Source: Astropecten irregularis
Lineage: Eukaryota > Echinodermata > Asteroidea > Paxillosida > Astropectinidae
Direction: 5' to 3'
Length of the DNA stretch: 64,000 nt
NCBI GenBank assembly: GCA_963971285.1
Contig: OZ020247.1
Coordinates: forward strand, 12,048,614-12,112,613
Under the pieces are notes generated by a model. The model was given only the letters and a program-made list of their open reading frames with translations. It had not been told where the DNA came from and did no database searches. Below, piece after piece: positions 37,818 to 64,000 of the stretch (position 1 is the first letter of the stretch; the number at the start of each line of letters is the position of its first letter). Both the position numbers and the translations under genes were made by a program.

Positions 37818-38078
37818 TTACTTTACAAAAAGTGGTTTAAGCTGCAATTGGTGGCCAGTGGCCTTAATTACACTATTAGTTTGATACCAAACATTTTCTC
37901 CATTGACCACTTTGAATTTTGTCTGTATTTTGTTATTCCAGATTGGTAGGCCTTGGGCCAAAAATCCTAGAGCTCTTTTGAAGATGAAGACAGCGATAAA
38001 GTCCAGGAACTGCCTCATAACAGAGATTCGATCTTGTGAGTAGAACCCTTCATTACTCCATTTGAACGATTTTGACAT
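37818..38078 (-). pseudogene. Possible exon remnant with an IWNNK motif
   Basis: An 86-codon open frame on the minus strand in non-repeat DNA. Residues 20-43 read like a helix-forming segment (VMRQFLDFIAVFIFKRALGF) and are followed by GLPIWNNK at 43-50. An IWN(N/H)K motif in a similar setting occurs near the C-terminus of Rieske oxygenases of the cholesterol 7-desaturase (Neverland/DAF-36) family, from memory. The downstream residues do not clearly match that family. On the minus strand a plausible acceptor, GGTTATTTCAG, lies at about 38114-38124, but the frame just after it meets TAA. The piece may therefore be a decayed exon, a differently bounded exon, or chance. A homology search is required before the name is used. 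Confidence 0.25.
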
Positions 38079-38384: not shown

Positions 38385-38415
38385 AGTTTGCAAGAAAATT
38401 AGAAGAAGAAGTTAG
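38385..38415 (+). other. Degenerate, truncated exon-like module
   Basis: After CTTTCCAG the sequence AGTTTGCAAGAAAATTAG encodes the same start as the other copies (FARKLEEE) but runs into satellite monomer sequence at 38416 after GTTAG. It is more diverged than the internal copies, as expected for an old copy at the array edge. Confidence 0.65.
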
Positions 38416-39083
38416 TTTTCCCAACACCAAAAAATCTACTCTAACATCGGACTCACTTGAAATATATAAAAATTTGGCATTATCATCACGGGTCAAAAAG
38501 TTGGAGTTTTCACCAGGTCCGGACCTGTTAGACAACGGGCAGTTTTCACCAGGTCCGAACCTGACAGCAGGGGTCCCGGGTGCGAGACCTGAAACAGCAT
38601 AATTTTTTTTCCCAACACCAAAAAATCTTATCTGACATCAGACTCTCTTGAAATATATACAAATTTGGCATTATCATCACGGGTCAAAAAGATGGAGTTT
38701 TCACCAGGTCCAGACCTGTTAGCCAACGGGCAGTTTTCACCAGGTCCGGACCTGATAGCCAGGGGTCCCGAGTGCGAGACCCGAAACCGCATAAGTTTTC
38801 TTTCCTGACACCAAAAAATCTAATCTATCATCGGACTTGCTTGATATATATCAAAATTTAGCATTATCATCACGGGTCCAAAAGTTGGAGTTTTCACCAG
38901 GTCCGGACCTGTTAGCCAACGGGCAGTTTTCACCAGGTCCGGACCTGACAGCCAGGGGTCCCGGGTGTGAGACCCAAAACTGCATAATTTTTTTTCCTGG
39001 TGCTCAGGTCCGGACCTGTTCCAAACTGCCACTTTTTGATACTTGTCTGAAAACGTATTTCATATATTATTTTGACTCTTCAG

Positions 39084-39100
39084 AATTTTCGAGACTTGAA
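39084..39100 (+). other. Exon-like module, 5' part of transposon-split copy
   Basis: Seventeen bases following TGACTCTTCAG, of the FSRLEEE class. The copy is broken after TTGAA by the element at 39101 and resumes at 41035. Removing the element and one TTGAA gives 85 nt, the normal module length. Confidence 0.85.
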
Positions 39101-41034
39101 GTAGGTATCACAATGAATTTTTGAAAGTATTTAAATCTGATTTCTTTTGTATTTAGTCTTGAAGAGCATCTGAAAAGAAACATTTTGATATATCATATGT
39201 TAAATTTGGATGAATATTTTAGGAATTATGGTAATTTAACGGTCACCGAAATGGGCCAAAAAATGGCCTAATTAGCATAAATGAATAATTACCCATATTT
39301 ATGATGTCATATCTTTGAAACCGAGGTGGTAATCACATTAATATTACATAAATTAATAGTATCCATTACATAGTCATTGCCTATTTTTTTTCAGGTTCTT
39401 ACAAATAAAGGTTTTTTTCTACAATTTTTTTAATTTTATGAAAATCCTATTTTTGACACATGAAAAAATGGCCTTCCTGTTAAGCCGGGAATTGCGAGCG
39501 TCAGTTTTTTATGGATTTTCAACCCCAGCTATATAAAAAAGTACACACCCCAGGGACTTGAATTTTGGCACAAGTATAGTAGGTATGAAACACAATATAT
39601 TCTGAAATTTGGGGATATTTTGCCATTTAAATTACAATAAAATGAGCTTTTACAAATGGCTCTAAACAAATAAATTATAAGGGCTGCATGACGCATATCG
39701 CATGCATATCAATATGCATACTTTCCATGCATTTTCAGACGTGGCTAGATTGCAATCCCAGTATGCAGGTTCAGTTTTGATACACTGGTAGAAAGTATTA
39801 ATGTAAATCCTCTCTGTAAAATTGGAGCTTTATAATACATTCAATAAGTTGTAAACAGCTTTTAAAAATGACTCAAAACAATTAAATATGATGTGTATAT
39901 TGCGCGATGCGATATACAGTATGCGATCGCATACTGTATGCATACATGCATGCGATCGCACTTGGATATGGTTTTCTGTACGCGTAGGCCGAAGCGATGT
40001 ACCTTCGATGTGTTTTCCCTGGATCTTTTCATCCCTACCCCGAGTCAAAGTCCTGTGATTTCACCTCCAAAACGATCCTTAACTTCCATCCTCGGACCGA
40101 TTGAGAATCGGAAATTCCGATAATTACAAGATTTTGTCGCATTTTGTTGAAAAAACCCCCAACAAAATCACCCGGAAATGGGCACCGATACGATCGTCCG
40201 TGTTGTTGTCACGTTGTTGCATGCATGCATGCACTAAATGCACGTGCACTTAATGGCGCCGGATACCAGTGCCATAGCCGATGCGTTGGCGCTCACACTG
40301 ATCGTCGTCGCGACGACTGTTATCTGAACAACCACGCAAGCGTCCCCACAATCGGGTGTAAAGTACCGCGTGCTGAAATTTAGCTATTCAGTACACAGTC
40401 GTCGGCACGCACGTGCGCACACACTGGTGCACGTCTTAATGCATTAAAATGCAACGATCCGGGTTATCTCTCCCTGTTTGGGGGCTTTGCGCATGTGCGC
40501 TATCTTGTGGTTGGATTTGGCAATGGTCTTATCGAATTCGCTAGAAAATTCTCTTTCTTTTGATATGAAGTTGATGTCAAAATTACGTTCTTTTTTAGGA
40601 GAAAAATTAGGATGAAATCTTCAATTTTATTTTTCACAACTATTATATGGCCTACCCCCATCAAGTTTTATATCAAAATGAAGCGGAAAATGTCCTCTTG
40701 CTGACCGTGCCATTTTCAAAACAAATGGAGTTATGGCGACCGAGCGCCGTGCGCGAGAAATAGCGGTACGGTTTGGTGGTCAAAAACAGAAACGTTCAAA
40801 CATTGTGAATGGGTGAAAATACAGCGGTGATTGTGGGAACGTAGTATAATATGTAAGTGTCGGATTTTAATCAAACTTATATGAGAAGAAAGTAGACATA
40901 CAGAGCTTTCAAATGATACATAATTTTCCACGGAAAGAATTTTTTTTAATATGAAAATCGTCGATCAAAAAGTCGCATTTTGCGTGGTCAAACTGTGTGC
41001 GTCACGGTGCACGGCGCTCTACTGTGATACCTAC
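39101..41034. mobile_element. 1,934-bp DNA transposon, non-autonomous, family unassigned
   Basis: The ends are a 12-bp perfect inverted repeat, GTAGGTATCACA and TGTGATACCTAC. TTGAA is present directly on both sides (39096-39100 and 41035-41039), a 5-bp target duplication. The uninterrupted target GACTTGAAGAAGAAGCTAG occurs in every other copy of the exon-like module, so the insertion boundaries are exact. The interior is AT-rich on the left and has CpG-rich, GCATGC-rich sequence on the right. Only small open frames (up to 79 codons) are present and none looks like a transposase. The 5-bp duplication with these termini does not fit a superfamily I can name with confidence. Confidence 0.88.
39914..39939. 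repeat. 26-bp perfect palindrome centred on GCGATCGC
   Basis: ATACAGTATGCG followed by ATCGCATACTGTAT is fully self-complementary, with no spacer. It sits in a GCATGC/ATGCAT-rich part of the 1,934-bp transposon and could be an internal transposase-binding or structural site. Function is unknown. Confidence 0.8.
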
Positions 41035-41107
41035 TTGAAGAAGAAGCTAGTGGATCCATTGAAGATTATGGCAGGCTGTCAAGGTCTCGATCTAAATCAT
41101 CGCACAG
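41035..41107 (+). other. Exon-like module, 3' part of transposon-split copy
   Basis: Resumes at the duplicated TTGAA and runs to CACAG before GTATGATG. It completes the module begun at 39084. Confidence 0.85.
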
Positions 41108-42741
41108 GTATGATGTCTCAATTTTTTCCCAGATTCCAAAAAATCTAATTCGACACCAGACTCACTCGAAATATATCTGATTTTGGCATTATTGTCACGT
41201 GTCAAATAGTTGGAGTTTTCACCAGGTCCGGACCTGTTAGCCAACGGGCAGTTTTCACCAGGTCCGGACCTGATAGCCAGGGGTCCCGGGTGCGAGACCC
41301 GAAACGGCATAATTTTTTTTCCCAACACCAAAAAATCTACTCTAACATCGGACTCGCTTGAAATATATAAAAATTTGGCATTATCATCACGGGTCCAAAA
41401 GTTGGAGTTTTCACCAGGTCCGGACCTGTTAGCCAACGGGCAGTTTTCACCAGGTGCTTCCCTGATAGCCAGGGGTCCCGGGTGCGAGACCCGAAATGGC
41501 ATAATTTTTTTTCCAAACACCAAAAAATCTAATCTAACATCGGACTCGCTTGAAATATATAAAAATTTGGCATTATCATCATGGGTCCAAAAGTTGGAGT
41601 TTTCACCAGGTCCGAACCTGTTAGCCAACGGGCAGTTTTCACCAGGTCCGGACGTGATAGCCAGGGGTCCCGAGTACGAGACCCGAAACTGCATAATTTT
41701 TTTTCCTGACACCAAAAAATCTAATCTATCATCGGACTTGCTTGAAATATATCAAAATTTAGCATTATCATCACTGGTCCAAAAGTTGGAGTTTTCACCA
41801 GGTCCGGACCTGTTAGCCAACGGGCAGTTTTCACCAGGTCCGGACCTGACAGCCAGGGGTCCCGGGTGCGAGACCTGAAACGGCATAATTTTTTTTCCCA
41901 ACACCAAAAAATCTTATCTGACATCAGACTCTCTTGAAATATATAAAAATTTGGCATTATCATCACGGGTCAAAAAGATGGAGTTTTCACCAGGTCTGAA
42001 CCTGTGAGCCAACGGGCAGTTTTCACCAGGTCCGGACCTGACAGCCAGGGGTCCTGGGTGCGAGACCCGAAACGGCATCCCAACACCAAAAAATCTACTC
42101 TAACATCGGACTCGCTTGAAATATGTAAAAATTTGGCATTATCATCACGGGTCCAAAAGATGGAGTTTTCACCAGGGTCGGACCTGTTAGCCAACGGGCA
42201 GTTTTCACCAGGTCCGGACCTGACAGCCAGGGGTCCCGGGTGCAAGACCTGAAACGGCATAATTTTTTTTCCCAACACCAAAAAATCTTATCTGACATCA
42301 GACTCTCTTGAAATATATACAAATTTGGCATTATCATCCAAGTCAAAAAGATGGAGTTTTCACCAGGTCCAGACCTGTTAGCCAACGGGCAGTTTTCACC
42401 AGGTCCGGACCTGATAGCCAGGGGTCCCGAGTGCGAGACCCGAAACCGCATCAGTTTTTTTTCCTGACACCAAAAAATCTTATCTGACATCAGACTCTCT
42501 TGAAATATATACAAATTTGGCATTATCATCCAAGTCCAAAAGTTGGAGTTTTCACCAGGTCCGGACCTGTTAGCCAACGGGCAGTTTTCACCAGGTCCGG
42601 ACCTGACAGCCAGGGGTCCCGGGTGTGAGACCCAAAACTGCATAATTTTTTTTCCTGGCGCTCAGGTCCGGACCTGTTCCAAACTGCCACTTTTTGATAC
42701 TTGTCTGAAAACGTATTTCATATATTATTTTGACTCTTCAG

Positions 42742-42826
42742 AATTTGCGAGACTTGAAGAAGAAGCTAGTGGATCCATTGAAGATTATGGCAGGCTGTCA
42801 AGGTCTCGATCTAAATCATCGCACAG
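42742..42826 (+). other. Exon-like module, full copy (85 nt)
   Basis: Eighty-five nucleotides lie between TATTTTGACTCTTCAG and GTATGATGTC, that is between an acceptor-like AG with a T-rich run and a donor-like GT. Only one frame is open: two bases, 27 codons, two bases, so it would join a phase-1 intron to a phase-2 intron. It encodes a peptide with LEEEASGSIEDYG followed by the SR-rich RLSRSRSKSSH. The 3' flank (GTATGATGTCTCAATC) and 5' flank (GATACTTGTCTGAAAACG) are amplified along with it. I do not recognise the peptide. It may be a real exon of a host gene that was caught up in satellite amplification, or a chance open stretch. Confidence 0.5.
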
Positions 42827-44276
42827 GTATGATGTCTCAATCTTTTCCCAGATTCCAAAAAATCTAATTCGACACCAGACTCACTCGAAATATATCTGAT
42901 TTTGGCATTATTGTCACGTGTCAAATAGTTGGAGTTTTCACCAGGTCCGGACCTGTTAGCCAACGGGCAGTTTTCACCAGGTCCGGACCTGACAGCCAGG
43001 GGTCCCGGGTGCGAGACCTGAAACGGCATAATTTTTTTTCCCAACACCAAAAAATCTTATCTGACATCAGACTCTCTTGAAATATATAAAAATTTGGCAT
43101 TATCATCACTGGTCCAAAAGTTGGAGTTTTCACCAGGTCCGAACCTGTAAGCCAACGGGCAGTTTTCACCAGGTCCAGACCTGACAGCCAGTGGTCCCGG
43201 GTGCGAGACCTGAAACGCCAGAATATATTTTCCCAACACCAAAAAATCTACTCTAACATCGGACTCGCTTGAAATATGTAAAAATTTGGCATTATCATCA
43301 CGGGTCAAAAAATTGGAGTTTTCACCAGGTCCGGACCTGTTAGCCAACGGGGTTTTCACCAGGTCCGGACCTGACAGCCAGGGGTCCCGGGTGCAAGACC
43401 TGAAACGGCATAATTTTTTTTCCCAACACCAAAAAATCTTATCTGACATCAGACTCTCTTGAAATATATAAAAATTTGGCATTATCATCCAAGTCAAAAA
43501 GATGGAGTTTTCACCAGGTCCGGACCTGTTAGCCAACGGGCAGTTTTCACCAGGTGCTTCCCTGATAGCCAGGGGTCCCGGGTGCGAGACCCGAAATGGC
43601 ATAATTTTTTTTCCAAACACCAAAAAATCTAATCTAACATCGGACTCACTTGAAATATATAAAAATTTGGCATTATCATCATGGGTCCAAAAGTTGGAGT
43701 TTTCACCAGGTCCGAACCTGTTAGCCAACGGGCAGTTTTCACCAGGTCCGGACCTGATAGCCAGGGGTCCCGAGTGCGAGACCCGAAACCGCATAATTTT
43801 TTTTCCTGACACCAAAAAATCTAATCTATCATCGGACTTGCTTGAAATATATCAAAATTTAGCATTATCATCACTGGTCCAAAAGTTGGAGTTTTCACCA
43901 GGTCCGGACCTGTTAGCCAACGGGCAGTTTTCACCAGGTGCTTCCCTGATAGCCAGGGGTCCCGGGTGCGAGACCTGAAACGGCATAATTTTTTTTCCCA
44001 ACACCAAAAAATCTTATCTGACATCAGACTCTCTTGAAATATATAAAAACTTGGCATTATCATCACTGGTCCAAAAGTTGGAGTTTTCACCAGGTCCGGA
44101 CCTGTTGGCCAACGGACAGTTTTCACCAGGTCCGGACCTGATAGCCAGGGGTCCCGGGTGTGAGACCCAAAACTGCATAATTTTTTTTCCTGGCGCTCAG
44201 GTCCGGACCTGTTCCAAACTGCCACTTTTTGATACTTGTCTGAAAACGTATTTCATATATTATTTGGACTCTTCAG

Positions 44277-44361
44277 AATTTGCGAGACTTGAAGAAGAAG
44301 CTAGTGGATCCATTGAAGATTATGGCAGGCTGTCAAGGTCTCGATCTAAATTATCGCACAG
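44277..44361 (+). other. Exon-like module, full copy (85 nt)
   Basis: Same boundaries, following TATTTGGACTCTTCAG. One coding difference (AAATTATCG) changes SKSSH to SKLSH. This variant is shared with the copies at 54089 and 58889, which sit in duplicated blocks. Confidence 0.5.
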
Positions 44362-45046
44362 GTATGATGTCTCAATCTTTTCCCAGATTCCAAAAAATCT
44401 AATTCGACACCAGACTCACTCGAAATATATCTGATTTTGGCATTATTGTCACGTGTCAAATAGTTGGAGTTTTCACCAGGTCCGGACCTGTTAGCCAACG
44501 GGCAGTTTTCACCAGGTCCGGACCTGACAGCCAGGGGTCCCGGGTGCGAGACCTGAAACGGCATAATTTGTTTTCCCAACACCAAAAAATCTTATCTGAC
44601 ATCAGACTCTCTTGAAATCTATAACAATTTGGCATTATCATCACGGGTCAAAAAGATGGAGTTTTCATCAGGTCCGGACCTGTAAGCCAACCGGCAGTTT
44701 TCACCAGGTCCGGACCTGATAGCCAGGGATCCCGGGTGCGAGACCCGAAACGGCATAATTTTTTTTCCCAACACCAAAAAATCTTATCTTACATCAGACT
44801 CTCTTGAAATATATAAAAATTTGGCATTATCATCACGGGTCAAAAAGATGGAGTTTTCACCAGGTCCGGACCTGTTAGCCAACGGGCAGTTTTCACCAGG
44901 TCCGGACCTGACAGCCAGCGGTCCCGGGTGTGAGACCCAAAACTGCATAATTTTTTTTCCTGGTGCTCAGGTCCGATCCTGTTCCAAACTGCCACTTTTT
45001 GATACTTGTCTGAAAACGTATTTCATATATTATTTTGACTCTTCAG

Positions 45047-45131
45047 AATTTTCGAGACTTGAAGAAGAAGCTAGTGGATCCATTGAAGATTATGGCAGGC
45101 TGTCAAGGTCTCGATCTAAATCATCGCACAG
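45047..45131 (+). other. Exon-like module, full copy (85 nt)
   Basis: FSRLEEE class (AATTTTCGAGAC), 770 bp after the preceding copy. The paralogue 10,779 bp downstream is at 55826. Confidence 0.5.
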
Positions 45132-46573
45132 GTATGATGTCTCAATTTTTTCCCAGATTCCAAAAAATCTAATTCGACACCAGACTCACTCGAAATATAT
45201 CTGATTTTGGCATTATTGTCACGTGTCAAATAGTTGGAGTTTTCACCAGGTCCGGACCTGTTAGCCAATGGGCAGTTTTCACCAGGTCCGGACCTGATAG
45301 CCAGGGGTCCCGAGTGCGAGACCCGAAACGGCATAATTTTTTTTCCCAACACCAAAAAATCTACTCTAACATCGGACTCGCTTGAAATATATAAAAATTT
45401 GGCATTATCATCACGGGTCCAAAAGTTGGAGTTTTCACCAGGTCCGGACCTGTTAGCCAACGGGCAGTTTTCACCAGGTGCTTCCCTGATAGCCAGGGGT
45501 CCCGGGTGCGAGACCCGAAATGGCATAATTTTTTTTCCAAACACCAAAAAATCTAATCTAACATCGGACTCGCTTGAAATATATAAAAATTTGGCATTAT
45601 CATCATGGGTCCAAAAGTTGGAGTTTTCACCAGGTCCGAACCTGTTAGCCAACGGGCAGTTTTCACCAGGTCCGGACGTGATAGCCAGGGGTCCCGAGTG
45701 CGAGACCCGAAACTGCATAATTTTTTTTCCTGACACCAAAAAATCTAATCTATCATCGGACTTGCTTGAAATATATCAAAATTTGGCATTATCATCACGG
45801 GTCAAAAAGATGGAGTTTTCACCAGGTCTGAACCTGTGAGCCAACGGGCAGTTTTCACCAGGTCCGGACCTGACAGCCAGGGGTCCTGGGTGCGAGACCC
45901 GAAACGGCATCCCAACACCAAAAAATCTACTCTAACATCGGACTCGCTTGAAATATGTAAAAATTTGGCATTATCATCACGGGTCCAAAAGATGGAGTTT
46001 TCACCAGGGTCGGACCTGTTAGCCAACGGGCAGTTTTCACCAGGTCCGGACCTGACAGCCAGGGGTCCCGGGTGCAAGACCTGAAACGGCATAATTTTTT
46101 TTCCCAACACCAAAAAATCTTATCTGACATCAGACTCTCTTGAAATATATACAAATTTGGCATTATCATCCAAGTCAAAAAGATGGAGTTTTCACCAGGT
46201 CCAGACCTGTTAGCCAACGGGCAGTTTTCAGCAGGTCCGGACCTGATAGCCAGGGGTCCCGGGTGCGAGACCTGAAACGGCATCAGTTTTTTTTCCTGAC
46301 ACCAAAAAATCTTATCTGACATCAGACTCTCTTGAAATATATACAAATTTGGCATTATCATCCAAGTCCAAAAGTTGGAGTTTTCACCAGGTCCGGACCT
46401 GTTAGCCAACGGGCAGTTTTCACCAGGTCCGGACCTGACAGCCAGGGGTCCCGGGTGTGAGACCCAAAACTGCATAATTTTTTTTCCTGGCGCTCAGGTC
46501 CGGACCTGTTCCAAACTGCCACTTTTTGATACTTGTCTGAAAACGTATTTCATATATTATTTTGACTCTTCAG

Positions 46574-46658
46574 AATTTGCGAGACTTGAAGAAGAAGCTA
46601 GTGGATCCATTGAAGATTATGGCAGGCTGTCAAGGTCTCGATCTAAATCATCGCACAG
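46574..46658 (+). other. Exon-like module, full copy (85 nt)
   Basis: The last copy before the 6.2-kb insertion, which begins 72 bases further on in the module's downstream flank. Confidence 0.5.
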
Positions 46659-46729
46659 GTATGATGTCTCAATCTTTTCCCAGATTCCAAAAAATCTAAT
46701 TCGACACCAGACTCACTCGAAATATATCT

Positions 46730-46775
46730 GAGTCTACTGCATTCAACCTACCCCAGACGGTTACTACTATATGCA
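46730..46775 (+). repeat. 46-bp inverted repeat, left end of insertion
   Basis: Begins GAGTCTACTGCATTCAACC and ends ACTATATGCA. Its exact reverse complement is at 52580-52625. Inside it the homology with the right end continues to 46885 through GCCGCCATGATCGTCC. Confidence 0.93.
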
Positions 46776-46885
46776 AATTCCCCTGCGCCAATTTGCTGCT
46801 TCGCTGAAAAGACTTGATCAACCGTGGTGCACCCTGACCTCCCACAATGCATACCGACATAGCCGCCATGATCGTCCTTCTTTTC

Positions 46886-47592
46886 TCAGCGCCGCTATGA
46901 AACGGACGTGCCCTTCGTGGGCTCTTTCGATTTTCGAGTTTCCGTTTCCCGCTGCTCTTCCAAACTGTATAGACTTGATATTTTTCCTTTTTACTTATCT
47001 GATTAACCGTTACCAATAAACAGTGTTCTCTTGTGCGTTTGTTTTTGGTATTTTTCTCTCTCTTTTTCTTTGTGCATCCTACAGGTACCGTGATCCTACG
47101 TCGTCACGGTCTATACACCTCTACGTGATGCCGGGGTAACACAGCCGGCTCTGTGCTTACGACCCGATGAAAGGCCTATATGCGGGGGGAATGGATGAGA
47201 GTTTAACCTCATTCCCTCCGCGGTACAGCAAATCGGAATGGCCGAGTTTGGGTTCGTCCCCTCATTCCGGGCTACTGCTGCTACCACTGCCAGTCCGAAG
47301 GAATTCCGGGCGGTTAGATGCTAGGCATGCCTTGAAGGCTACGTGTCTAATTGTCCCGAAGAGGCCTACGGCCGGGGGTAGCTCGATACCACGGTCGCTA
47401 CCAGAGCGGAGGGAGAACGCTCGCTACCGGAGGCGACGAAGGATGCCGCCGCAACGAAATGACTGGCCCGGGCGTAACATGCTCCTTTTGTTTAGGAAAC
47501 ATTGTTACGACCCGCTCAACAGAGGCTCGCCCCGGATACGTTTTCCGGTCTCCCGAGCCGATATACTAGCTGTCTACGGGTAAGAGCCGTGA
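46886..47592. other. Left interior of insertion, no gene recognised
   Basis: Starts with a pyrimidine-rich stretch (TTTTTCTCTCTCTTTTTC near 47045) and then becomes GC-rich. A 138-codon frame at 47167-47583 lies in the same frame as the longer one that follows, separated by closely spaced stops. No motif was recognised. Confidence 0.5.
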
Positions 47593-47628
47593 TGACGTGC
47601 TTTTGCTCCCCATGTCTGCCGGGCTCGA

Positions 47629-48621
47629 TTGCGGACGTCAGAGAGATGCCCTGTCTGCGTCCAGCCTCCAGTGGTCCTAGCTTTTATTCTGCACACTCCA
47701 CGCCTTTGTCCGATGTACAAAGCCTCAGACATCAGTGTATATGAGCAGTGCTACAATCGTACCACCGCTACGCCCGAGCGAACACCATTGCGGACCTCAG
47801 AGAGATGTGCAGAGGCTCGAGCAGCCAATGAGCACCGTGACCCCACGTCCATTGTCTGGCTCTACCCAGACGGAAAGCCATGGAGAGTTCCATACACGGC
47901 TGAACTGCCAGACAGCTACTCCAGCCCGCACCATGCCACCGACTTCAACCCGCTACCATTAGCGGCCTCCAGTCGCCTACACAGGGCACGGTATGAAGGC
48001 TTACCTCGCCGAAGATCATGTGCTATAGCTGTGGGGGTGAGAGAAGCGATATGCCTACCACCCCTCAGTCTGTCGAGCACGATTGCGGACGTCAAAGGGA
48101 CGCTCCTTTACTACGTGGCCCAGCCGCATAGAGCTGAAAGCTTCAGGGGGTCACACACAAGACCCCTCAACAGGCCACACGGGGCATTACGCACGGCTTT
48201 GTTAGCCGCGCTACCAGACCCCCCTTCATTTGATACATGGATTGTCACACACACATCCTTGCTATTGTTGGGCTCTCCCCAAGCGGAAAGATGTGGAGAG
48301 ATCTACGTACACAGCTGCACGGCCCATCGTCCATACAAGCCAGGTCAACACCGTCGGCTTTGTTCCGTGATGCATCGGCGGCCACAATCAGTTGGACCAA
48401 CTACAGTACATGTATTACACCGACGTCCAGTGACGATTGCCGCCTGGACGCGCCCACTTATCTGGCCCTCTCCGCCCAGACCAAGCTCCATGGCGCAGTG
48501 TCTCTTTATTATAATAATAATGGACTCTTTTAATGCGCCGGTATCCGCCAAGCATGACGCTCATGGCACATATCTATTATTATCCTTGGTCAGCGGGCCA
48601 CAATTTACAGCATACATGTAA
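47629..48621 (+). CDS. Unassigned 330-codon open frame in insertion
   Basis: The longest open frame in the window. The frame is open from 47593; the first ATG is at 47629. The protein would be rich in Pro, Arg, Ser and His, with no signal peptide, membrane span or known catalytic motif that I can see. A CPVC pair sits near its start. Two stretches resemble each other, WLYPDGKPWR and the differently framed GLSPSGKMWR (from about 47854 and 48267), which suggests internal duplication of the DNA. It is too long to expect readily by chance at this composition, but C-rich, T-poor DNA favours open frames. It may be a decayed transposon protein or non-coding. The following frame at 48635 begins 13 bases after its stop in another frame. 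Confidence 0.3.
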   Translation: MRTSERCPVCVQPPVVLAFILHTPRLCPMYKASDISVYEQCYNRTTATPERTPLRTSERCAEARAANEHRDPTSIVWLYPDGKPWRVPYTAELPDSYSSPHHATDFNPLPLAASSRLHRARYEGLPRRRSCAIAVGVREAICLPPLSLSSTIADVKGTLLYYVAQPHRAESFRGSHTRPLNRPHGALRTALLAALPDPPSFDTWIVTHTSLLLLGSPQAERCGEIYVHSCTAHRPYKPGQHRRLCSVMHRRPQSVGPTTVHVLHRRPVTIAAWTRPLIWPSPPRPSSMAQCLFIIIIMDSFNAPVSAKHDAHGTYLLLSLVSGPQFTAYM

Positions 48622-48634
48622 TTCTTAGCTCGAG

Positions 48635-49210
48635 ATGGACTTTATACGAGCCTTTTCCGACCATCGCTCAACGAAAGCAGAGAGCCTCAACGCCTGCACC
48701 AACTCAGCCGCAATAGCCCTTTACGCAGCCGAGCCCAGCCGACTGTCACCCTCAGAGTCGGACTGTACCCACGGTCGGACTGTCTCAAGTCGAGTCGTTC
48801 CACTTCCACGGCCGACTTGTCCTGTCCTATCCATACTGGAATCTCACTTCAATCTGCTATACGCTGTACACGCACTTCGTACTGTACATGGATCCCTTCA
48901 TACTGTCCGGCTTTACTGGAGCGGAAACGATGCCGCCGGCTCGGCCCCAACTGCAGTCGACGCACCTTGGGCCGAGTTGGCCCGCGGACGACTTAAGGCT
49001 AAACTCTATGCTTCCACGGATGCATTGATGGATAATGCCGGTACTTTCTTCCTCGCGGAGCGGAAAGCTGCTAGGATTCCCATCTGCAGTTTTTTACCGC
49101 CCAATGGCCATGCCGGTCCGCACTATGTTCTCGGGCTCGGCCGCTTGCAGTCGACCTGCTTCATGGCGAGTTGTTCCCAGTCGAGTTGTCCAGTGCCCAT
49201 GGGCCGATAA
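48635..49210 (+). CDS. Unassigned 191-codon open frame in insertion
   Basis: A second open frame just downstream of the 330-codon frame, shifted by one base. It includes the segment PWAELARGRLKAKLYAS and a Cys-rich C-terminus (CFMASCSQSSC). No family was recognised. If the two frames are remnants of one protein, a frameshift lies between them; they could equally be fortuitous. Confidence 0.22.
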   Translation: MDFIRAFSDHRSTKAESLNACTNSAAIALYAAEPSRLSPSESDCTHGRTVSSRVVPLPRPTCPVLSILESHFNLLYAVHALRTVHGSLHTVRLYWSGNDAAGSAPTAVDAPWAELARGRLKAKLYASTDALMDNAGTFFLAERKAARIPICSFLPPNGHAGPHYVLGLGRLQSTCFMASCSQSSCPVPMGR

Positions 49211-49607
49211 CGCGTCCTACCTTAGCTCGACGCTACGGAGCGGTAACATGTACCCGAGACACGTACACTGAATCATCGTTCACCATCGCTACCGGAACGG
49301 GAAACTGCGAGAGTCCACACGCACTGCACGTAACTGTTCAACGACCACGCATCACTGCACTTCCGGGCGCATTGTACAACCGTCAACATTTACGGCTTGC
49401 ACACTACTACAATGACTACAGCCAAGACCGCTCCGTGGCTCCACATCGGTGACCTCGGCGACCCTGGCAGTCATTAGTGTACTACATGTATTCTGTTTGG
49501 ACGCTGGATAATGAATAGAGTGATAAAGGTGATTAAAATGCGAGCCTGCATTGACTCGAAATTCGGCTACCTCACTCGCCACGCATGTTGTCCTGAGGTC
49601 AAAGGTC

Positions 49608-49664
49608 ATACATGTGATAATACATGTACATGTTTTATACATGTGATAATACTTGTACATGTAC
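49608..49664. repeat. Two-copy minisatellite, 29-bp unit
   Basis: ATACATGTGATAATACATGT at 49608 and ATACATGTGATAATACTTGT at 49637 start two units of 29 bp rich in ACATGT. ACATGTACATGT words are frequent in several marine invertebrate genomes (general impression). Confidence 0.8.
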
Positions 49665-52579: not shown

Positions 52580-52625
52580 TGCATATAGTAGTAACCGTCT
52601 GGGGTAGGTTGAATGCAGTAGACTC
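52580..52625 (-). repeat. 46-bp inverted repeat, right partner
   Basis: Exact reverse complement of 46730-46775, ending GCAGTAGACTC. It directly abuts and slightly overlaps the start of the MITE at 52624. Confidence 0.93.
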
Positions 52626-52903
52626 TCCCCCACCTGTTGTGGGTTGAGTCTACTAGTTCATACCTACCCCAGACGGTTGCGTCCCGCCCGTCCTCCCCAC
52701 TTCTGGCCTCGAGCCTCCTGGCTTCGAAAAGAAGGACGATCATGGCGGCTATGTCGGTATGCATTGTGGGAGGTCAGGGTGCACCACGGTTGATCAAGTC
52801 TTTTCAGCGAAGCAGCAAATTGGCGCAGGGGAATTTGCATATAGTAGTAACCGTCTGGGGTAGGTATGAACTAGTAGACTCAACCCACAACAGGTGGGGG
52901 AGA
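52624..52903. mobile_element. 280-bp MITE-like element with 55-bp inverted ends
   Basis: Perfect 55-bp inverted repeats at 52624-52678 and 52849-52903, beginning TCTCCCCCACCTGTTGTGGG. Further in, the ends contain CCTACCCCAGACGGTT, shared with the 46-bp repeats of the large insertion. The right half (from about 52726) is an inverted copy of the insertion's left end. This looks like a deletion derivative of the same transposon family, either nested in or forming the right end of the larger insertion. Confidence 0.85.
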
Positions 52904-54088: not shown

Positions 54089-54173
54089 AATTTGCGAGAC
54101 TTGAAGAAGAAGCTAGTGGATCCATTGAAGATTATGGCAGGCTGTCAAGGTCTCGATCTAAATTATCGCACAG
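54089..54173 (+). other. Exon-like module, full copy (85 nt)
   Basis: SKLSH variant, paralogue of the copies at 44277 and 58889. Confidence 0.5.
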
Positions 54174-54858
54174 GTATGATGTCTCAATCTTTTCCCAGAT
54201 TCCAAAAAATCTAATTCGACACCAGACTCACTCGAAATATATCTGATTTTGGCATTATTGTCACGTGTCAAATAGTTGGAGTTTTCACCAGGTCCGGACC
54301 TGTTAGCCAACGGGCAGTTTTCACCAGGTCCGGACCTGACAGCCAGGGGTCCCGGGTGCGAGACCTGAAACGGCATAATTTTTTTTCCCAACACCAAAAA
54401 ATCTTATCTGACATCAGACTCTCTTGAAATATATAAAAATTTGGCATTATCATCACGGGTCAAAAAGATGGAGTTTTCACCATGTCCGGACCTGTTAGCC
54501 AACGGGCAGTTTTCACCAGGTCCGGACCTGATAGCCAGGGGTCCCGGGTGCGAGACCCGAAACGGCATAATTTTTTTTCCCAACACTAAAAAATCTACTC
54601 TAACATTGGACTCGCTTGAAATATATAAAAATTTGGCATTATCATCACGGGTCCAAAAGTTGGAGTTTTCACCAGGTCCGGACCTGTTGGCCAACGGACA
54701 GTTTTCACCAGGTCCGGACCTGATAGCCAGGGGTCCCGGGTGTGAGACCCAAAACTGCATAATTTTTTTTCCTGGCGCTCAGGTCCGGACCTGTTCCAAA
54801 CTGCCACTTTTTGATACTTGTCTGAAAACGTATTTCATATATTATTTTGACTCTTCAG

Positions 54859-54946
54859 AATTTGCAAGAAAACTTGAAGAAGAAGCTAGTGGATCCATTG
54901 AAGATTATGGCAGGCTGTCAAGGTCTCGATCTAAATCATCGCACAG
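54859..54946 (+). other. Exon-like module, full copy (88 nt)
   Basis: Carries AATTTGCAAGAAAACTTG, one extra codon (FARKLEEE in place of FARLEEE). The length change of exactly three bases keeps the frame and both intron phases. Confidence 0.5.
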
Positions 54947-55825
54947 GTATGATGTCTCAATCTTTTCCCAGATTCCAAAAAATCTAATTCGACACCAGAC
55001 TCACTCGAAATATATCTGATTTTGGCATTATTGTCACGTGTCAAATAGTTGGAGTTTTCACCAGGTCCGGACCTGTTAGCCAACGGGCAGTTTTCACCAG
55101 GTCCGGACCTGACAGCCAGTGGTCCCGGGTGCGAGACCTGAAACGGCAGAATATATTTTCCCAACACCAAAAAATCTACTCTACCATCGGACTCGCTTGA
55201 AATATATAAAAATTTGGCATTATCATCACGGGTCCAAAAGTTGGAGTTTTCACCAGGTCCGGACCTGTTAGCCAACGGGCAGTTTTCACCAGGTCCGGAC
55301 CTGATAGCCAGGGGTCCCGGGTGCGAGACCCGAAAACGGCATAATTTTCTTTTCCCAACACCAAAAAATCTAATCTGACATCGGACTCGCTTGAAATATA
55401 TAAAAATTTGGCATTATCATGACGGGTCAAATAGTTGGAGTTTTCACCAGGTCCGGACCTGTTAGCCAACGGGCAGTTTTCACCAGGTCCGAACCTGACA
55501 GCCAGGGGTCCCGGGTGCGAGACCCGAAACGGCATAATTTTTTTTCCCAACACCAAAAAATCTTATCTGACATCAGTCTCTCTTGAAATATATAAAAATT
55601 TGGCATTATCATCACGGGTCAAAAAGATGGAGTTTTCACCAGGTCCGGACCTGTTAGCCAACGGGCAGTTTTCACCAGGTCTGGACCTGATAGCCAGGGG
55701 TCCCGGGTGCGAGACCCAAAACGGCATAATTTTTTTTCCTGGTGCTCAGGTCCGATCCTGTTCCAAACTGCCACTTTTTGATACTTGTCTGAAAACGTAT
55801 TTCATATATTATTTTGACTCTTCAG

Positions 55826-55910
55826 AATTTTCGAGACTTGAAGAAGAAGCTAGTGGATCCATTGAAGATTATGGCAGGCTGTCAAGGTCTCGATCTAAAT
55901 CATCGCACAG
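55826..55910 (+). other. Exon-like module, full copy (85 nt)
   Basis: FSRLEEE class, paralogue of 45047. Confidence 0.5.
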
Positions 55911-57352
55911 GTATGATGTCTCAATTTTTTCCCAGATTCCAAAAAATCTAATTCGACACCAGACTCACTCGAAATATATCTGATTTTGGCATTATTGTCA
56001 CCTGTCAAATAGTTGGAGTTTTCACCAGGTCCGGACCTGTTAGCCAATGGGCAGTTTTCACCAGGTCCGGACCTGATAGCCAGGGGTCCCGGGTGCGAGA
56101 CCCGAAACGGCATAATTTTTTTTCCCAACACCAAAAAATCTACTCTAACATCGGACTCGCTTGAAATATATAAAAATTTGGCATTATCATCACGGGTCCA
56201 AAAGTTGGAGTTTTCACCAGGTCCGGACCTGTTAGCCAACGGGCAGTTTTCACCAGGTGCTTCCCTGATAGCCAGGGGTCCCGGGTGCGAGACCCGAAAT
56301 GGCATAATTTTTTTTCCAAACACCAAAAAATCTAATCTAACATCGGACTCGCTTGAAATATATAAAAATTTGGCATTATCATCATGGGTCCAAAAGTTGG
56401 AGTTTTCACCAGGTCCGAACCTGTTAGCCAAAGGGCAGTTTTCACCAGGTCCGGACGTGATAGCCAGGGGTCCCGAGTGCGAGACCCGAAACTGCATAAT
56501 TTTTTTTCCTGACACCAAAAAATCTAATCTATCATCGGACTTGCTTGAAATATATCAAAATTTGGCATTATCATCACGGGTCAAAAAGATGGAGTTTTCA
56601 CCAGGTCTGAACCTGTGAGCCAACGGGCAGTTTTCACCAGGTCCGGACCTGACAGCCAGGGGTCCTGGGTGCGAGACCCGAAACGGCATCCCAACACCAA
56701 AAAATCTACTCTAACATCGGACTCGCTTGAAATATGTAAAAATTTGGCATTATCATCACGGGTCCAAAAGATGGAGTTTTCACCAGGGTCGGACCTGTTA
56801 GCCAACGGGCAGTTTTCACCAGGTCCGGACCTGACAGCCAGGGGTCCCGGGTGCAAGACCTGAAACGGCATAATTTTTTTTCCCAACACCAAAAAATCTT
56901 ATCTGACATCAGACTCTCTTGAAATATATACAAATTTGGCATTATCATCCAAGTCAAAAAGATGGAGTTTTCACCAGGTCCAGACCTGTTAGCCAACGGG
57001 CAGTTTTCAGCAGGTCCGGACCTGATAGCCAGGGGTCCCGGGTGCGAGACCTGAAACGGCATCAGTTTTTTTTCCTGACACCAAAAAATCTTATCTGACA
57101 TCAGACTCTCTTGAAATATATACAAATTTGGCATTATCATCCAAGTCCAAAAGTTGGAGTTTTCACCAGGTCCGGACCTGTTAGCCAACGGGCAGTTTTC
57201 ACCAGGTCCGGACCTGACAGCCAGGGGTCCCGGGTGTGAGACCCAAAACTGCATAATTTTTTTTCCTGGCGCTCAGGTCCGGACCTGTTCCAAACTGCCA
57301 CTTTTTGATACTTGTCTGAAAACGTATTTCATATATTATTTTGACTCTTCAG

Positions 57353-57437
57353 AATTTGCGAGACTTGAAGAAGAAGCTAGTGGATCCATTGAAGATTATG
57401 GCAGGCTGTCAAGGTCTCGATCTAAATCATCGCACAG
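57353..57437 (+). other. Exon-like module, full copy (85 nt)
   Basis: Paralogue of 46574, identical in the module as far as read. Confidence 0.5.
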
Positions 57438-58888
57438 GTATGATGTCTCAATCTTTTCCCAGATTCCAAAAAATCTAATTCGACACCAGACTCACTCGAA
57501 ATATATCTGATTTTGGCATTATTGTCACGTGTCAAATAGTTGGAGTTTTCACCAGGTCCGGACCTGTTAGCCAACGGGCAGTTTTCACCAGGTCCGGACC
57601 TGACAGCCAGGGGTCCCGGGTGCGAGACCTGAAACGGCATAATTTTTTTTCCCAACACCAAAAAATCTTATCTGACATCAGACTCTCTTGAAATATATAA
57701 AAATTTGGCATTATCATCACTGGTCCAAAAGTTGGAGTTTTCACCAGGTCCGAACCTGTAAGCCAACGGGCAGTTTTCACCAGGTCCAGACCTGACAGCC
57801 AGTGGTCCCGGGTGCGAGACCTGAAACGCCAGAATATATTTTCCCAACACCAAAAAATCTACTCTAACATCGGACTCGCTTGAAATATGTAAAAATTTGG
57901 CATTATCATCACGGGTCAAAAAATTTGGAGTTTTCACCAGGTCCGGACCTGTTAGCCAACGGGGTTTTCACCAGGTCCGGACCTGACAGCCAGGGGTCCC
58001 GGGTGCAAGACCTAAAACGGCATAATTTTTTTTCCCAACACCAAAAAATCTTATCTGACATCAGACTCTCTTGAAATATATAAAAATTTGGCATTATCAT
58101 CCAAGTCAAAAAGATGGAGTTTTCACCAGGTCCGGACCTGTTAGCCAACGGGCAGTTTTCACCAGGTGCTTCCCTGATAGCCAGGGGTCCCGGGTGCGAG
58201 ACCCGAAATGGCATAATTTTTTTTCCAAACACCAAAAAATCTAATCTAACATCGGACTCACTTGAAATATATAAAAATTTGGCATTATCATCATGGGTCC
58301 AAAAGTTGGAGTTTTCACCAGGTCCGAACCTGTTAGCCAACGGGCAGTTTTCACCAGGTCCGGACCTGATAGCCAGGGGTCCCGAGTGCGAGACCCGAAA
58401 CCGCATAATTTTTTTTCCTGACACCAAAAAATCTAATCTATCATCGGACTTGCTTGAAATATATCAAAATTTAGCATTATCATCACTGGTCCAAAAGTTG
58501 GAGTTTTCACCAGGTCCGGACCTGTTAGCCAACGGGCAGTTTTCACCAGGTGCTTCCCTGATAGCCAGGGGTCCCGGGTGCGAGACCTGAAACGGCATAA
58601 TTTTTTTTCCCAACACCAAAAAATCTTATCTGACATCAGACTCTCTTGAAATATATAAAAACTTGGCATTATCATCACTGGTCCAAAAGTTGGAGTTTTC
58701 ACCAGGTCCGGACCTGTTGGCCAACGGACAGTTTTCACCAGGTCCGGACCTGATAGCCAGGGGTCCCGGGTGTGAGACCCAAAACTACATAATTTTTTTT
58801 CCTGGCGCTCAGGTCCGGACCTGTTCCAAACTGCCACTTTTTGATACTTGTCTGAAAACGTATTTCATATATTATTTGGACTCTTCAG

Positions 58889-58973
58889 AATTTGCGAGAC
58901 TTGAAGAAGAAGCTAGTGGATCCATTGAAGATTATGGCTGGCTGTCAAGGTCTCGATCTAAATTATCGCACAG
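58889..58973 (+). other. Exon-like module, full copy (85 nt)
   Basis: SKLSH variant with a private change giving YGWLSRSRS in place of YGRLSRSRS. The frame stays open. Confidence 0.5.
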
Positions 58974-59658
58974 GTATGATGTCTCAATCTTTTCCCAGAT
59001 TCCAAAAAATCTAATTCGACACCAGACTCACTCGAAATATATCTGATTTTGGCATTATTGTCACGTGTCAAATAGTTGGAGTTTTCACCAGGTCCGGACC
59101 TGTTAGCCAACGGGCAGTTTTCACCAGGTCCGGACCTGACAGCCAGGGGTCCCGGGTGCGAGACCTGAAACGGCATAATTTTTTTTCCCAACACCAAAAA
59201 ATCTTATCTGACATCAGACTCTCTTGAAATATATAAAAATTTGGCATTATCATCACGGGTCAAAAAGATGGAGTTTTCACCATGTCCGGACCTGTTAGCC
59301 AACGGGCAGTTTTCACCAGGTCCGGACCTGATAGCCAGGGGTCCCGGGTGCGAGACCCGAAACGGCATAATTTTTTTTCCCAACACTAAAAAATCTACTC
59401 TAACATTGGACTCGCTTGAAATATATAAAAATTTGGCATTATCATCACGGGTCCAAAAGTTGGAGTTTTCACCAGGTCCGGACCTGTTGGCCAACGGACA
59501 GTTTTCACCAGGTCCGGACCTGATAGCCAGGGGTCCCGGGTGTGAGACCCAAAACTGCATAATTTTTTTTCCTGGCGCTCAGGTCCGGACCTGTTCCAAA
59601 CTGCCACTTTTTGATACTTGTCTGAAAACGTATTTCATATATTATTTTGACTCTTCAG

Positions 59659-59746
59659 AATTTGCAAGAAAACTTGAAGAAGAAGCTAGTGGATCCATTG
59701 AAGATTATGGCAGGCTGTCAAGGTCTCGATCTAAATCATCGCACAG
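59659..59746 (+). other. Exon-like module, full copy (88 nt)
   Basis: FARKLEEE class, paralogue of 54859. Its downstream flank switches to satellite sequence (TTTTCCCAACACC) sooner than in the other copies, near 59765. Confidence 0.5.
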
Positions 59747-62122
59747 GTATGATGTCTCAATCTTTTCCCAACACCAAAAAATCTAATTCGACACCAGACT
59801 CACTCGAAATATATCTGATTTTGGCATTATTGTCACGTGTCAAATAGTTGGAGTTTTCACCAGGTCCGGACCTGTTAGCCAACGGGCAGTTTTCACCAGG
59901 TCCGGACCTGACAGCCAGTGGTCCCGGGTGCGAGACCTGAAACGGCAGAATATATTTTCCCAACACCAAAAAATCTACTCTACCATCGGACTCGCTTGAA
60001 ATATATAAAAATTTGGCATTATCATCACGGGTCCAAAAGTTGGAGTTTTCACCAGGTCCGGACCTGTTAGCCAACGGGCAGTTTTCACCAGGTCCGGACC
60101 TGACAGCCAGTGGTCCCGGGTGCAAAGACCTGAAACGGCAGAATATATTTTCCCAACACCAAAAAATCTAATCTGACATCGGACTCGCTTGAAATATATA
60201 AAAATTTGGCATTATCATGACGGGTCAAATAGTTGGAGTTTTCACCAGGTCCGGACCTGTTAGCCAACGGGCAGTTTTCACCAGGTCCGAACCTGACAGC
60301 CAGGGGTCCCGGGTGCGAGACCCGAAACGGCATAATTTTTTCTCCACACTCCAAAAAATCTAATCTCTCATCGGACTCGCTTGAAATATGTAAAAATTTG
60401 GCGTTATCATGACGGTTCAAAAAGTTGGAGTTTTCACCAGGTCCGGACCTGTTAGCCAACGGGCAGTTTTCACCAGGTCCGGACCTGATAGCCAGGGGTC
60501 CCGGGTGCGAGACCCGAAACGGCATAATTTTTTTTCCCAACACCAAAAAATCTTATCTGACATCAGTCTCTCTTGAAATATATAAAAATTTGGCATTATC
60601 ATCACGGGTCCAAAAGATGGAGTTTTCACCAGGTCCGGACCTGTTAGCCAACGGGCAGTTTTCACCAGGTCTGGACCTGATAGCCAGGGGTCCCGGGTGC
60701 GAGACCCGAAACGGCATAATTTTTTTTCCCAACACCAAAAAATCTACTCTAACATCGGACTCGCTTGAAATATATAAAAATTTGGCATTATCATCACGGG
60801 TCAAAAAGTTGGAGTTTTCACCAGGTCCGGACCTGATAGCCAGGGGTCCTGGGTGCGAGACCCGAAACGGCATAATTTTTTCTCTAGACTCCAAAAAATC
60901 TAATCTGACATCGGATTCGCTTGAAATATATAAAAATTTTGCATTATCATGACGGGTCAAATAGTTGGAGTTTTCACCAGGTCCGGACCTGTTAGCCAAC
61001 GGGCAGTTTTCACCAGGTCCGGACCTGACAGCCAGGGGTCCCGGGTGCGAGACCCGAAACGGCATAATTTTTTCTCCACACTCCAAAAAATCTAATCTGA
61101 CATCGGACTCGCTTGAAATATATAAAAATTTGGCATTATCATGACGGTTCAAAAAGTTGGAGTTTTCACCAGGTCCGGACCTGTTAGCCAACTGGCAGTT
61201 TTCACCAGGTCCGGACCTGACAGCCAGTGGTCCCGGGTGCGAGACCTGAAACGGCATAATTTTTTTTCCCAACACCAAAAAATCTTATCTGACATCAGAC
61301 TCTCTTGAAATATATAAAAATTTGGCATTATCATCCAAGTCAAAAAGATGGAGTTTTCACCAGGTCCGGACCTGTTAGCCAATGGGCAGTTTTCACCAGG
61401 TGCTTCCCTGATAGCCAGGGGTCCCGGGTGCGAGACCCGAAATGGCATAATTTTTTTTCCAAACACCAAAAAATCTAATCTAACATCGGACTCACTTGAA
61501 ATATATAAAAATTTGGCATTATCATCATGGGTCCAAAAGTTGGAGTTTTCACCAGGTCCGAACCTGTTAGCCAACGGGCAGTTTTCACCAGGTCCAGACC
61601 TGATAGCCAGGGGTCCCGAGTGCGAGACCCGAAACCGCATAATTTTTTTTCCTGACACCAAAAAATCTAATCTATCATCGGACTTGCTTGAAATATATCA
61701 AAATTTAGCATTATCATCACTGGTCCAAAAGTTGGAGTTTTGACCAGGTCCGGACCTGTTAGCCAACGGGCAGTTTTCACCAGGTGCTTCCCTGATAGCC
61801 AGGGGTCCCGGGTGCGAGACCTGAAACGGCATAATTTTTTTTCACAACACCAAAAAATCTTATCTGACATCAGACTCTCTTGAAATATATAAAAACTTGG
61901 CATTATCATCACTGGTCCAAAAGTTGGAGTTTTCACCAGGTCCGGACCTGTTGGCCAACGGACAGTTTTCACCAGGTCCGGACCTGATAGCCAGGGGTCC
62001 CGGGTGTGAGACCCAAAACTGCATAATTTTTTTTCCTGGCGCTCAGGTCCGGACCTGTTCCAAACTGCCACTTTTTGATACTTGTCTGAAAACGTATTTC
62101 ATATATTATTTTGACTCTTCAG

Positions 62123-62210
62123 AATTTGCAAGAAAACTTGAAGAAGAAGCTAGTGGATCCATTGAAGATTATGGCAGGCTGTCAAGGTCTCGATCTAAAT
62201 CATCGCACAG
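62123..62210 (+). other. Exon-like module, full copy (88 nt)
   Basis: FARKLEEE class, 2,464 bp after the previous module, the longest module-free run in this block. Confidence 0.5.
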
Positions 62211-63467
62211 GTATGATGTCTCAATCTTTTCCCAGATTCCAAAAAATCTAATTCGACACCAGACTCACTCGAAATATATCTGATTTTGGCATTATTGTCA
62301 CGTGTCAAATAGTTGGAGTTTTCTCCAGGTCCGGACCTGATAGCCAACGGGCAGTTTTCACCAGGTCCGGACCTGATAGCCAGGGGTCCCGAGTGCGAGA
62401 CCCGAAACCGCATAATTTTTTTCCTGACACCAAAAAATCGAATCTATCATCGGACTTGCTTGAAATATATCAAAATTTTCATAATCATCACTGGTCCAAA
62501 AGTTGGAGTTTTCACCAGGTCCGGACCTGTTAGCCAACGGGCAGTTTTCACCAGGTCCGGACCTGACAGCCAGGGGTCCCGGGTGCAAGACCTGAAACGG
62601 CATAATTTTTTTTCCCAACACCAAAAAATCTTATCTGACATCAGACTCTCTTGAAATCTATAAAAATTTGGCATTATCATCACGGGTCAAAAAGTTGGAG
62701 TTTTCTCCAGGTCCGGACCTGATAGCCAACGGGCAGTTTTCACCAGGTCCGGACCTGATAGCCAGGGGTCCCGGGTGCGAGACCCTAAACGGCATAATTT
62801 TTTTTCAGACTCGAAAAAATCTAATCCATCATCGGACTTGCTTGAAATATATCAAAATTTTCATAATCATCACTGGTCCAAAAGTTGGAGTTTTCACCAG
62901 GTCCTGACCTGTAAGCCAACGGGCAGTTTTCACCAGGTCCGGACCTGACAGCCAGGGGTCCCGGGTGCAAGACCTGAAACGGCATAATTTTTTTTCCCAA
63001 TACCAAAAAATCTTATCTGACATCAGACTCTCTTGAAATATATAAAAATTTGGCATTATCATCACGGGTCAAAAAGTTGGAGTTTTCTCCAGGTCCGGAC
63101 CTGATAGCCAACGGGCAGTTCTCACCAGGTCCGGACCTGATAGCCAGGGGTCCCGGGTGCGAGACCCGAAACGGCTTAATTTTTTTTCCCAACACCAAAA
63201 AATCTAATCTGACATCAGACTCTCTTGAAATATATCAAAATTTGGCATTATCATCATGGGTCAAAAAGTGGATGTTTTCACCAGGTCCGGACCTGATAGC
63301 CAACGGCCAGTTTTCACCAGGTCCGGACCTGATAGCCAGGGGTCCCGGGTGCGAGACCCGAAACCGCATAATTTTTTTTTCAGGCGCTCAGGTCGGGACC
63401 TGTTCCAAACTGCCACTTTTTGACACGTGTCTGAAAACTTATTTCATATATAATTTTGTCTTTTCAG

Positions 63468-63485
63468 AATTTGATAGAAAACTTT
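63468..63485 (+). other. Degenerate, truncated exon-like module
   Basis: After TCTTTTCAG the sequence AATTTGATAGAAAACT gives FDRKL and then runs directly into TTTTTTCCCAACACC of a satellite monomer. The upstream flank is also diverged (GACACGTGTCTGAAAAC). Confidence 0.6.
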
Positions 63486-63960
63486 TTTTCCCAACACCAA
63501 AAAATCTTATCTGACATCAGACTCTCTTGAAATATATAACAATTTGGCATTATCATCACGGGTCAAAAAGATGGAGTTTTCACCAGGTCCGGACCTGTTA
63601 GCCAACGGGCAGTTTTCACCAGGTCCGGAGCTGACAGCATGGGTCCCGGGTGCGAGACCTGAAACAGCATAATTTGTTTTCCCAACACCAAAAAATCTTA
63701 TCTTACATCAGACTCTCTTGAAATATATAAAAATTTGGCATTATCATCATGGGTCCAAAAGTTGGAGTTTTCACCAGGTCCGGACCTGTTAGCCAACGCG
63801 CAGTTTTCACCAGGTCCGGACCTGATAGCCAGGGGTCCCGGGTGTGAGACCCAAAACTGCATAATTTTTTTTCCTGGCGCTCAGGTCCGGACCTGTTCCA
63901 AACTGCCACTTTTTGATACTTGTCTGAAAACGTATTTCATATATTATTTTGACTCTTCAG

Positions 63961-64000
63961 AATTTGCAAGAAAACTTGAAGAAGAAGCTAGTGGATCCAT
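63961..64000 (+). other. Exon-like module, cut by window end
   Basis: Begins after TGACTCTTCAG with AATTTGCAAGAAAACTTG (88-nt class) and is still running, in frame, at GGATCCAT when the window ends. Confidence 0.5.

Follow-up and report, generated by a model that had tools for sequence, protein, structure and literature searches.

How does a short segment with the appearance of a protein-coding exon come to be repeated many times inside a satellite? This question is raised by a stretch of 64,000 nucleotides from the sea star Astropecten irregularis, subsequently referred to as the window (contig OZ020247.1 of assembly GCA_963971285.1, C10 in our numbering, positions 12048614-12112613; the genome comprises 475.7 Mb in 168 contigs). 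From 38416 to 64000 on the + strand, the window holds a satellite of 192-bp monomers with higher-order structure, which is interrupted by two insertions and carries modules, 85 or 88 nt long, that resemble exons. The modules belong to a field of 1.8 Mb that lies between two copies of the first exon of a CUSTOS gene. We consider it probable that growth of the satellite passively amplified an optional or relic exon of CUSTOS intron 1, and that the copies are passengers and not a working cassette.

Exon-like modules in the window

Eleven complete and uninterrupted modules were found in the window, eight of 85 nt and three of 88 nt, all on the + strand. Four types can be distinguished. Type a is located at 42742..42826, 46574..46658 and 57353..57437; type b (S to L) at 44277..44361, 54089..54173 and, with an additional R to W exchange, 58889..58973; and type c (A to S) at 45047..45131 and 55826..55910. 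Type d, which is 88 nt long and has an extra K, occupies 54859..54946, 59659..59746 and 62123..62210. A further 85-nt copy is split by a transposon into pieces of 18 nt (39084..39101, +) and 67 nt (41041..41107, +), and a type d copy is cut by the window end (63961..64000, +) and complete in the next locus. Two diverged + strand copies have lost their 3' part into the satellite, one at 38385..38416, with a complete counterpart at genome position 12519389, and one at 63468..63483 (EFDRKL). The original prediction spoke of thirteen complete copies; the total of 13 stands if the split and the window-cut copy are counted with the 11 uninterrupted ones. In the window, ACTCTTCAG is present 13 times (shuffle mean 0.56) and CACAGGTATGATG 12 times.

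Module lengths, acceptor, donor and phase had been described correctly: all 11 uninterrupted copies have an open frame running from phase 1 to phase 2. It is not the only open frame, as had been thought, since a second one (phase 0 to 1) is open in 11/11 as well. The announced peptide end RSRSKSSH is present in 8/11 copies, and the remaining three end in RSKLSH, one of them with R to W in addition. Besides the expected missense (three) and single-codon (one indel) differences, we found one silent difference (GCG/GCA). Four random changes would leave the module without a stop with a probability of about 0.8, and the open frame within the window is therefore almost weightless as evidence, in line with the earlier caution that retention of the frame speaks only weakly for selection. 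The second open frame and the high chance of staying stop-free would both be expected if the module had never been an exon but were satellite-associated DNA with a chance AG, GT and open frame, and the lack of a protein family match points the same way. We return to this possibility below.

The modules are an integral part of the satellite. There are 61 clean 192-bp monomers, with a mean pairwise identity of 0.925. Monomer anchors are spaced 386-389 bp apart around a module and 192 bp elsewhere, so that one module fills the room of one monomer. Along the window, the succession of types is c a b c a b d c a b d d x d, and blocks measuring 1.5 to 4.8 kb, repeated at 96 to 98.5% identity, have spread types a-d together with their flanks. 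For example, 41400-46216 and 56011-60842 match as a 4833-bp block with 96.5% identity. The recurrent type order and the repeating blocks indicate a higher-order repeat, in which tandem monomers form larger units and these units resemble each other more closely than monomers generally do.

Extent of the array in the genome

A search of the genome with the module peptide gave 451 first-look candidates, of which 150 were scored and 301 were left unscored. All 150 scored matches are on the contig of the window, on the + strand, between 10.777 and 12.590 Mb. Besides the window, we read 240 kb of the locus with its flanking DNA and five loci of 3 kb each. This DNA contains 78 full copies, all on the + strand, and 30 of these are absent from the list of 150 scored matches. 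The total amounts to at least 180 copies, which form 15 clusters and span 1.82 Mb, on one contig and one strand where seen; it is a lower bound because most of the field lies outside the DNA read.

The 78 copies were selected by a match spanning both splice sites, a rule by which copies without a site could be missed, and in this set AG and GT are present in 78/78. The acceptor is CTTCAG in 72 copies, TTTCAG in five and TTCCAG in one, and the donor is CAG/GTATGA in 75 and CAG/GTATGT in three. The phase-1 frame is broken in 5/78 copies, twice by a stop and three times by a one-base deletion; the other open frame has stops in 6/78. The expectation that no difference makes a stop or destroys a splice site thus holds for the 11 window copies and, regarding AG/GT, for the whole set, but not for the frame of every copy outside the window. 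The 78 copies encode 18 different peptides, and 31 copies are identical.

CUSTOS exons at both ends of the field

The order on the + strand is exon 1L, the 1.8-Mb field, exon 1R, exon G and the last exon. Exon 1R (12602124-12602250) starts with MTDSDSSSDEEEKAKLKSATWPVF and has the donor GTAAGA in phase 1. It is followed by the middle exon G of 100 nt (12609652-12609751, GFQLFSTSKPG...SSSD, phase 1 to 2) and by the last exon, which begins at 12610484 in phase 2 (SDSEEERSKLESVAVSYDQIL...). Exon 1L, at the left edge of the field (10765841 to 10765952), is shorter, and its protein is 78% identical to that of exon 1R. We infer the joints between these exons from splice consensus and frame. In searches of the whole genome at an E-value of 0.001, the last exon and exon G each gave a single match and exon 1 gave two (at 10765841 and 12602124). 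Custos reportedly binds beta-catenin, which requires it for entry into the nucleus (PMC5464927).

The assignment to CUSTOS is based on the Pfam family PF23999 (cut-off 27.4 bits, 264 positions). Exon 1R, exon G and the last exon together (235 aa) reach 29.9 bits over profile positions 114-245, and the first 109 aa of this model reach 32.5 bits over positions 114-175. The match derives from exon G and the last exon, which score 31.1 bits alone. The first 113 profile positions are unmatched, and the model may therefore miss exons. A direct search of the genome with PF23999 gave no match, but the positive controls were likewise silent and the result is therefore uninformative. Exon G plus the last exon also strongly resemble a segment of human CUSTOS (0/5000 shuffles as good).

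The satellite is tied to the first intron of this gene, since 192-bp monomers follow both exon 1 copies. In addition, a 973-bp stretch that begins 37 bp past exon 1R is 87% identical to one that begins 2.2 kb past exon 1L. Most probably, the module, 85-88 nt in length and running from phase 1 to phase 2, stood beside 192-bp monomers in CUSTOS intron 1, and the intronic satellite then grew by unequal exchange into the 1.8-Mb field, carrying the module along. A duplicate of exon 1 lies at the far end.

Two observations from the surroundings may be added here. A rhodopsin-type receptor and a gene of the triose-phosphate-transporter type precede the field on its left side. Within the window, 36424-36474 and 36524-36670 are about 80% identical to genome positions 12599450-12599705, 2.4 kb upstream of exon 1R, and may represent a copied promoter or 5' leader.

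Fit of the module to the CUSTOS reading frame

Exon 1, a module and the last exon can be read in frame to the stop in 73/78 copies. When exon 1L, one 88-nt copy and the last exon are joined computationally, 226 residues result. Skipping the copy between exon 1L and the last exon leaves 70 residues, and doubling it leaves 72. When the 11 window copies were joined two by two, a stop appeared in the second copy soon after the joint in 55/55 ordered pairs, which bears out the earlier conclusion that a transcript could use one copy at most. The location of the field between the exon 1 copies, the in-frame fit in 73/78 and the stop upon double inclusion make the amplification of an exon and its flanking intron together with an intronic satellite, as put forward in the original prediction, well supported.

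The same observations bear on the idea that the module was never an exon. We estimate that phases would fit by chance in about 1 in 9 cases, and the modules lie between CUSTOS exon 1 and the 3' exons with phases that fit at both ends. Together with the silent-only changes in the 5' part of a diverged copy (see below), this makes a chance assembly of splice sites and open frame a rather improbable explanation.

The phase fit could also mean that the array is at work. In such a system, a long CUSTOS pre-mRNA starting at the left exon 1 would include one of the many copies and continue with the last exon, and the reading frame would police the single choice. Fitting phases at both ends in 73/78 copies, a stop for every pair of the 11 window copies, AG/GT in 78/78 and the single strand of all copies seen are what one would expect from it. 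We nevertheless regard a working one-of-many array as improbable. Five of 78 copies are broken, the 18 peptides and 31 identical copies offer little diversity to choose from, a complete and compact CUSTOS model is present downstream, and there is no clear constraint among the copies (see below). Exon 1, exon G and the last exon form an open model even if no array copy is included. Within the 140 bases examined, no AG would let the 88-nt copy under test run in frame into exon G, and module and exon G therefore exclude each other.

If the left exon 1 were transcribed through the field, inclusion of one copy with exon G skipped would yield the 226-residue CUSTOS variant with an RS-rich insert, whereas zero copies (with exon G skipped as well) or two copies would yield a truncated protein. 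The sequence leaves room for a single array copy that may be in actual use. A more far-reaching version would have CUSTOS as a 1.84-Mb gene whose pre-mRNA crosses a satellite with at least 180 asymmetric exon copies. Any single copy could then be spliced, the frame would enforce exactly one, and growth of the satellite would renew a pool of interchangeable exons with the protein unchanged. We consider this very improbable.

Variation among the copies

In the 11 window copies, diversity is 0.016 in the module, 0.0175 in the upstream flank and 0.009 in the downstream flank. Among the copies read from the locus, with five old or frame-shifted ones excluded, the module shows 0.20 changes per site and the flanks 0.15-0.28. 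The comparison of synonymous and non-synonymous differences that had been proposed was carried out on 75 copies of 85 or 88 nt: 8 of 61 possible silent changes and 16 of 197 possible amino-acid or stop changes were found, a ratio of 0.62 that is not significantly below neutral (Fisher p = 0.31).

The module thus varies like its flanks, one of three findings that the original prediction had named as speaking against it. With a ratio not significantly below neutral, 5/78 broken copies and the compact CUSTOS model downstream, a working cassette of alternative exons, as had been proposed, finds no support. Copies that drift like their flanks and are in part broken are best described as passengers, presumably optional or relic exons.

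Several observations weigh against this interpretation. When the oldest copies are included, the module (0.31 changes per site) is less variable than the upstream flanks (0.50 and 1.22); the downstream flank, with 0.34, is not more variable than the module. AG and GT are kept in 78/78, although the match rule could miss copies lacking a site. Stops are rarer in the phase-1 frame (2/78) than in the other open frame (6/78). The diverged copy that starts at 38385 differs from the array by three silent and no missense changes over its first 27 exon nt, against 8/38 changed positions in the adjoining intron (p about 0.008), which hints at past coding constraint. The complete sister at 12519389 is diverged on its 5' side but resembles the array on its 3' side, and a single missense change (A/V) follows directly after the 27 nt. 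It looks recombinant, and the hint of constraint is therefore confined to about 30 nt. Finally, adding the module to the CUSTOS model brings no gain in score (29.7 bits), and replacing exon G by the module abolishes the match. The array exon contributes nothing to the CUSTOS score, and its descent from a CUSTOS exon is therefore without support from sequence similarity.

Origin of the module

The module might have been captured, that is, it could be an exon of some other gene, since lost or pseudogenized. The copies would still be passengers. This reading differs from passive amplification of a CUSTOS exon in origin only, and the probabilities of the two overlap; taken by itself, we see it as possible, if unlikely. 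It draws on a second exon-like piece at the starts of two blocks (window 37942-38035 and genome 12518924), whose frame SSFEDEDSDKVQELPHNRDSI runs through the acceptor into YNLDFPEFARKLEEE. The frame is continuous over the junction, the donor is a canonical GTGAGT, and the piece is identical in both blocks at 94/94 nt. In the frame of the junction, however, the piece contains two stops further upstream, its single stop-free frame leads to an immediate stop at the joint with array copies, and the array copies do not have the upstream acceptor. Nor does any family or structure match above the cut-off point to another gene.

The 94-nt piece itself has canonical sites, and its best peptide requires a frame change. 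A search for a homologous exon, as had been suggested, covered Pfam and PDB, where neither the module alone nor the module joined to the upstream piece gave anything above the cut-off. Three candidate relationships were discarded. A weak match to Helicase_PWI (E 0.12-0.16) depends on the upstream piece being read across the frame change. Homology between the array exon and exon G received no support from protein shuffles (p 0.68-0.86) or from DNA (best E 1.4), and the resemblance of the array exon to another segment of human CUSTOS (PEF...KKL) is not significant (p 0.37-0.64).

Comparison with known exon arrays and satellites

In higher-order-repeat satellites, monomers are organized in larger units that spread together. 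The array described here is built in the same way from 192-bp monomers, with the difference that its unit holds an open segment bounded by splice sites.

The closest counterparts among exon arrays are the mutually exclusive ones of Drosophila Dscam1 and of sDscam, which likewise consist of many short coding units in tandem, on one strand and upstream of constant 3' exons. For the 5' cassettes of sDscam in Chelicerata, numbers up to at least 40 are given, and transcripts and promoters have been shown (PMC4835542). The present array shares the tandem exon copies between constant exons, with splice sites in 78/78 copies and, in 73/78, a frame that fits both exon 1 and the last exon; maintenance and diversification of the copies by selection was not found. 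In contrast to sDscam as that source presents it, there are at least 180 near-identical copies with no clear sign of selection, embedded in a satellite.

The KIV-2 repeat of LPA offers a second comparison. As in the present case, an exon and its intron are amplified as a near-identical tandem unit within a gene; the KIV-2 units of 5.6 kb have two exons each, make up as much as 70% of the protein and are thus included in series (PMC11462820). Here, serial inclusion gives a stop in 55/55 ordered pairs. The array thus lacks a defining feature of exon arrays, selection, as well as one of coding variable number tandem repeats, serial inclusion.

Megabase-scale satellites between exons of one gene are known from the Drosophila Y genes kl-3 and kl-5, whose gigantic introns of simple repeats are transcribed (PMC6508621). 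The part of that source available to us mentions no exon borne by the satellite, whereas here an exon-like module is part of it. Among titles and abstract openings of the literature, we found no exon carried in hundreds of satellite units, although such a case may have been published.

Satellites are usually considered separately from exon duplications, and here a splice-ready open segment lies within the larger repeat unit of a satellite. A silent array would offer a natural experiment on how cells disregard hundreds of near-perfect pseudo-exons, provided that these are transcribed. If one copy is used, CUSTOS would be a gene in which the reading frame alone limits the choice to a single exon.

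Other features of the window

The module at 39084..41107 is split by an insertion of 1.9 kb (39102..41033, no strand assigned), which has terminal inverted repeats of 11 bp (TAGGTATCACA) and has duplicated 7 bp of its target, CTTGAAG. We take it to be hAT-like; the single reading frame tested had no family match. A DIRS-like element at 46730-52903 within the array has terminal inverted repeats of 162 nt (95%), and a region in its interior is complementary to the two ends (46 and 55 nt, 100%). None of its nine reading frames compared with Pfam was above the cut-off.

The consensus monomer contains the 14-bp palindrome CAGGTCCGGACCTG twice, and 121 palindromes are present in the window. Selection on the palindrome was rejected, its conservation being 0.955 against 0.945 for the rest of the monomer. 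The consensus monomer, corresponding to 64 codons, is open in one frame per strand, and the + frame continues into the module, which gives frames of more than 200 codons. Selection on this frame was likewise rejected: a stop is present in 14/28 distinct 192-bp monomers, and the variable sites are spread evenly over the codon positions.

Rfam and tRNA scans of the window gave nothing, and viral contigs scanned with a 21-mer of the satellite and a 20-mer of the exon gave 0 matches each. A 17-mer of the satellite was found in 31 stretches of bacterial genomes, which we took to be chance matches. At window positions 37260-37410, a CAACTCGTACGCC motif recurs as a cluster of short copies in direct and inverted orientation. 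The first part of the window (1-36399) is occupied by 166 copies of another satellite with a 217-bp unit, which ends just before the non-repetitive piece preceding the 192-bp array. At 12.517 Mb in the genome, the 217-bp satellite is again followed by this piece, with 99% identity.

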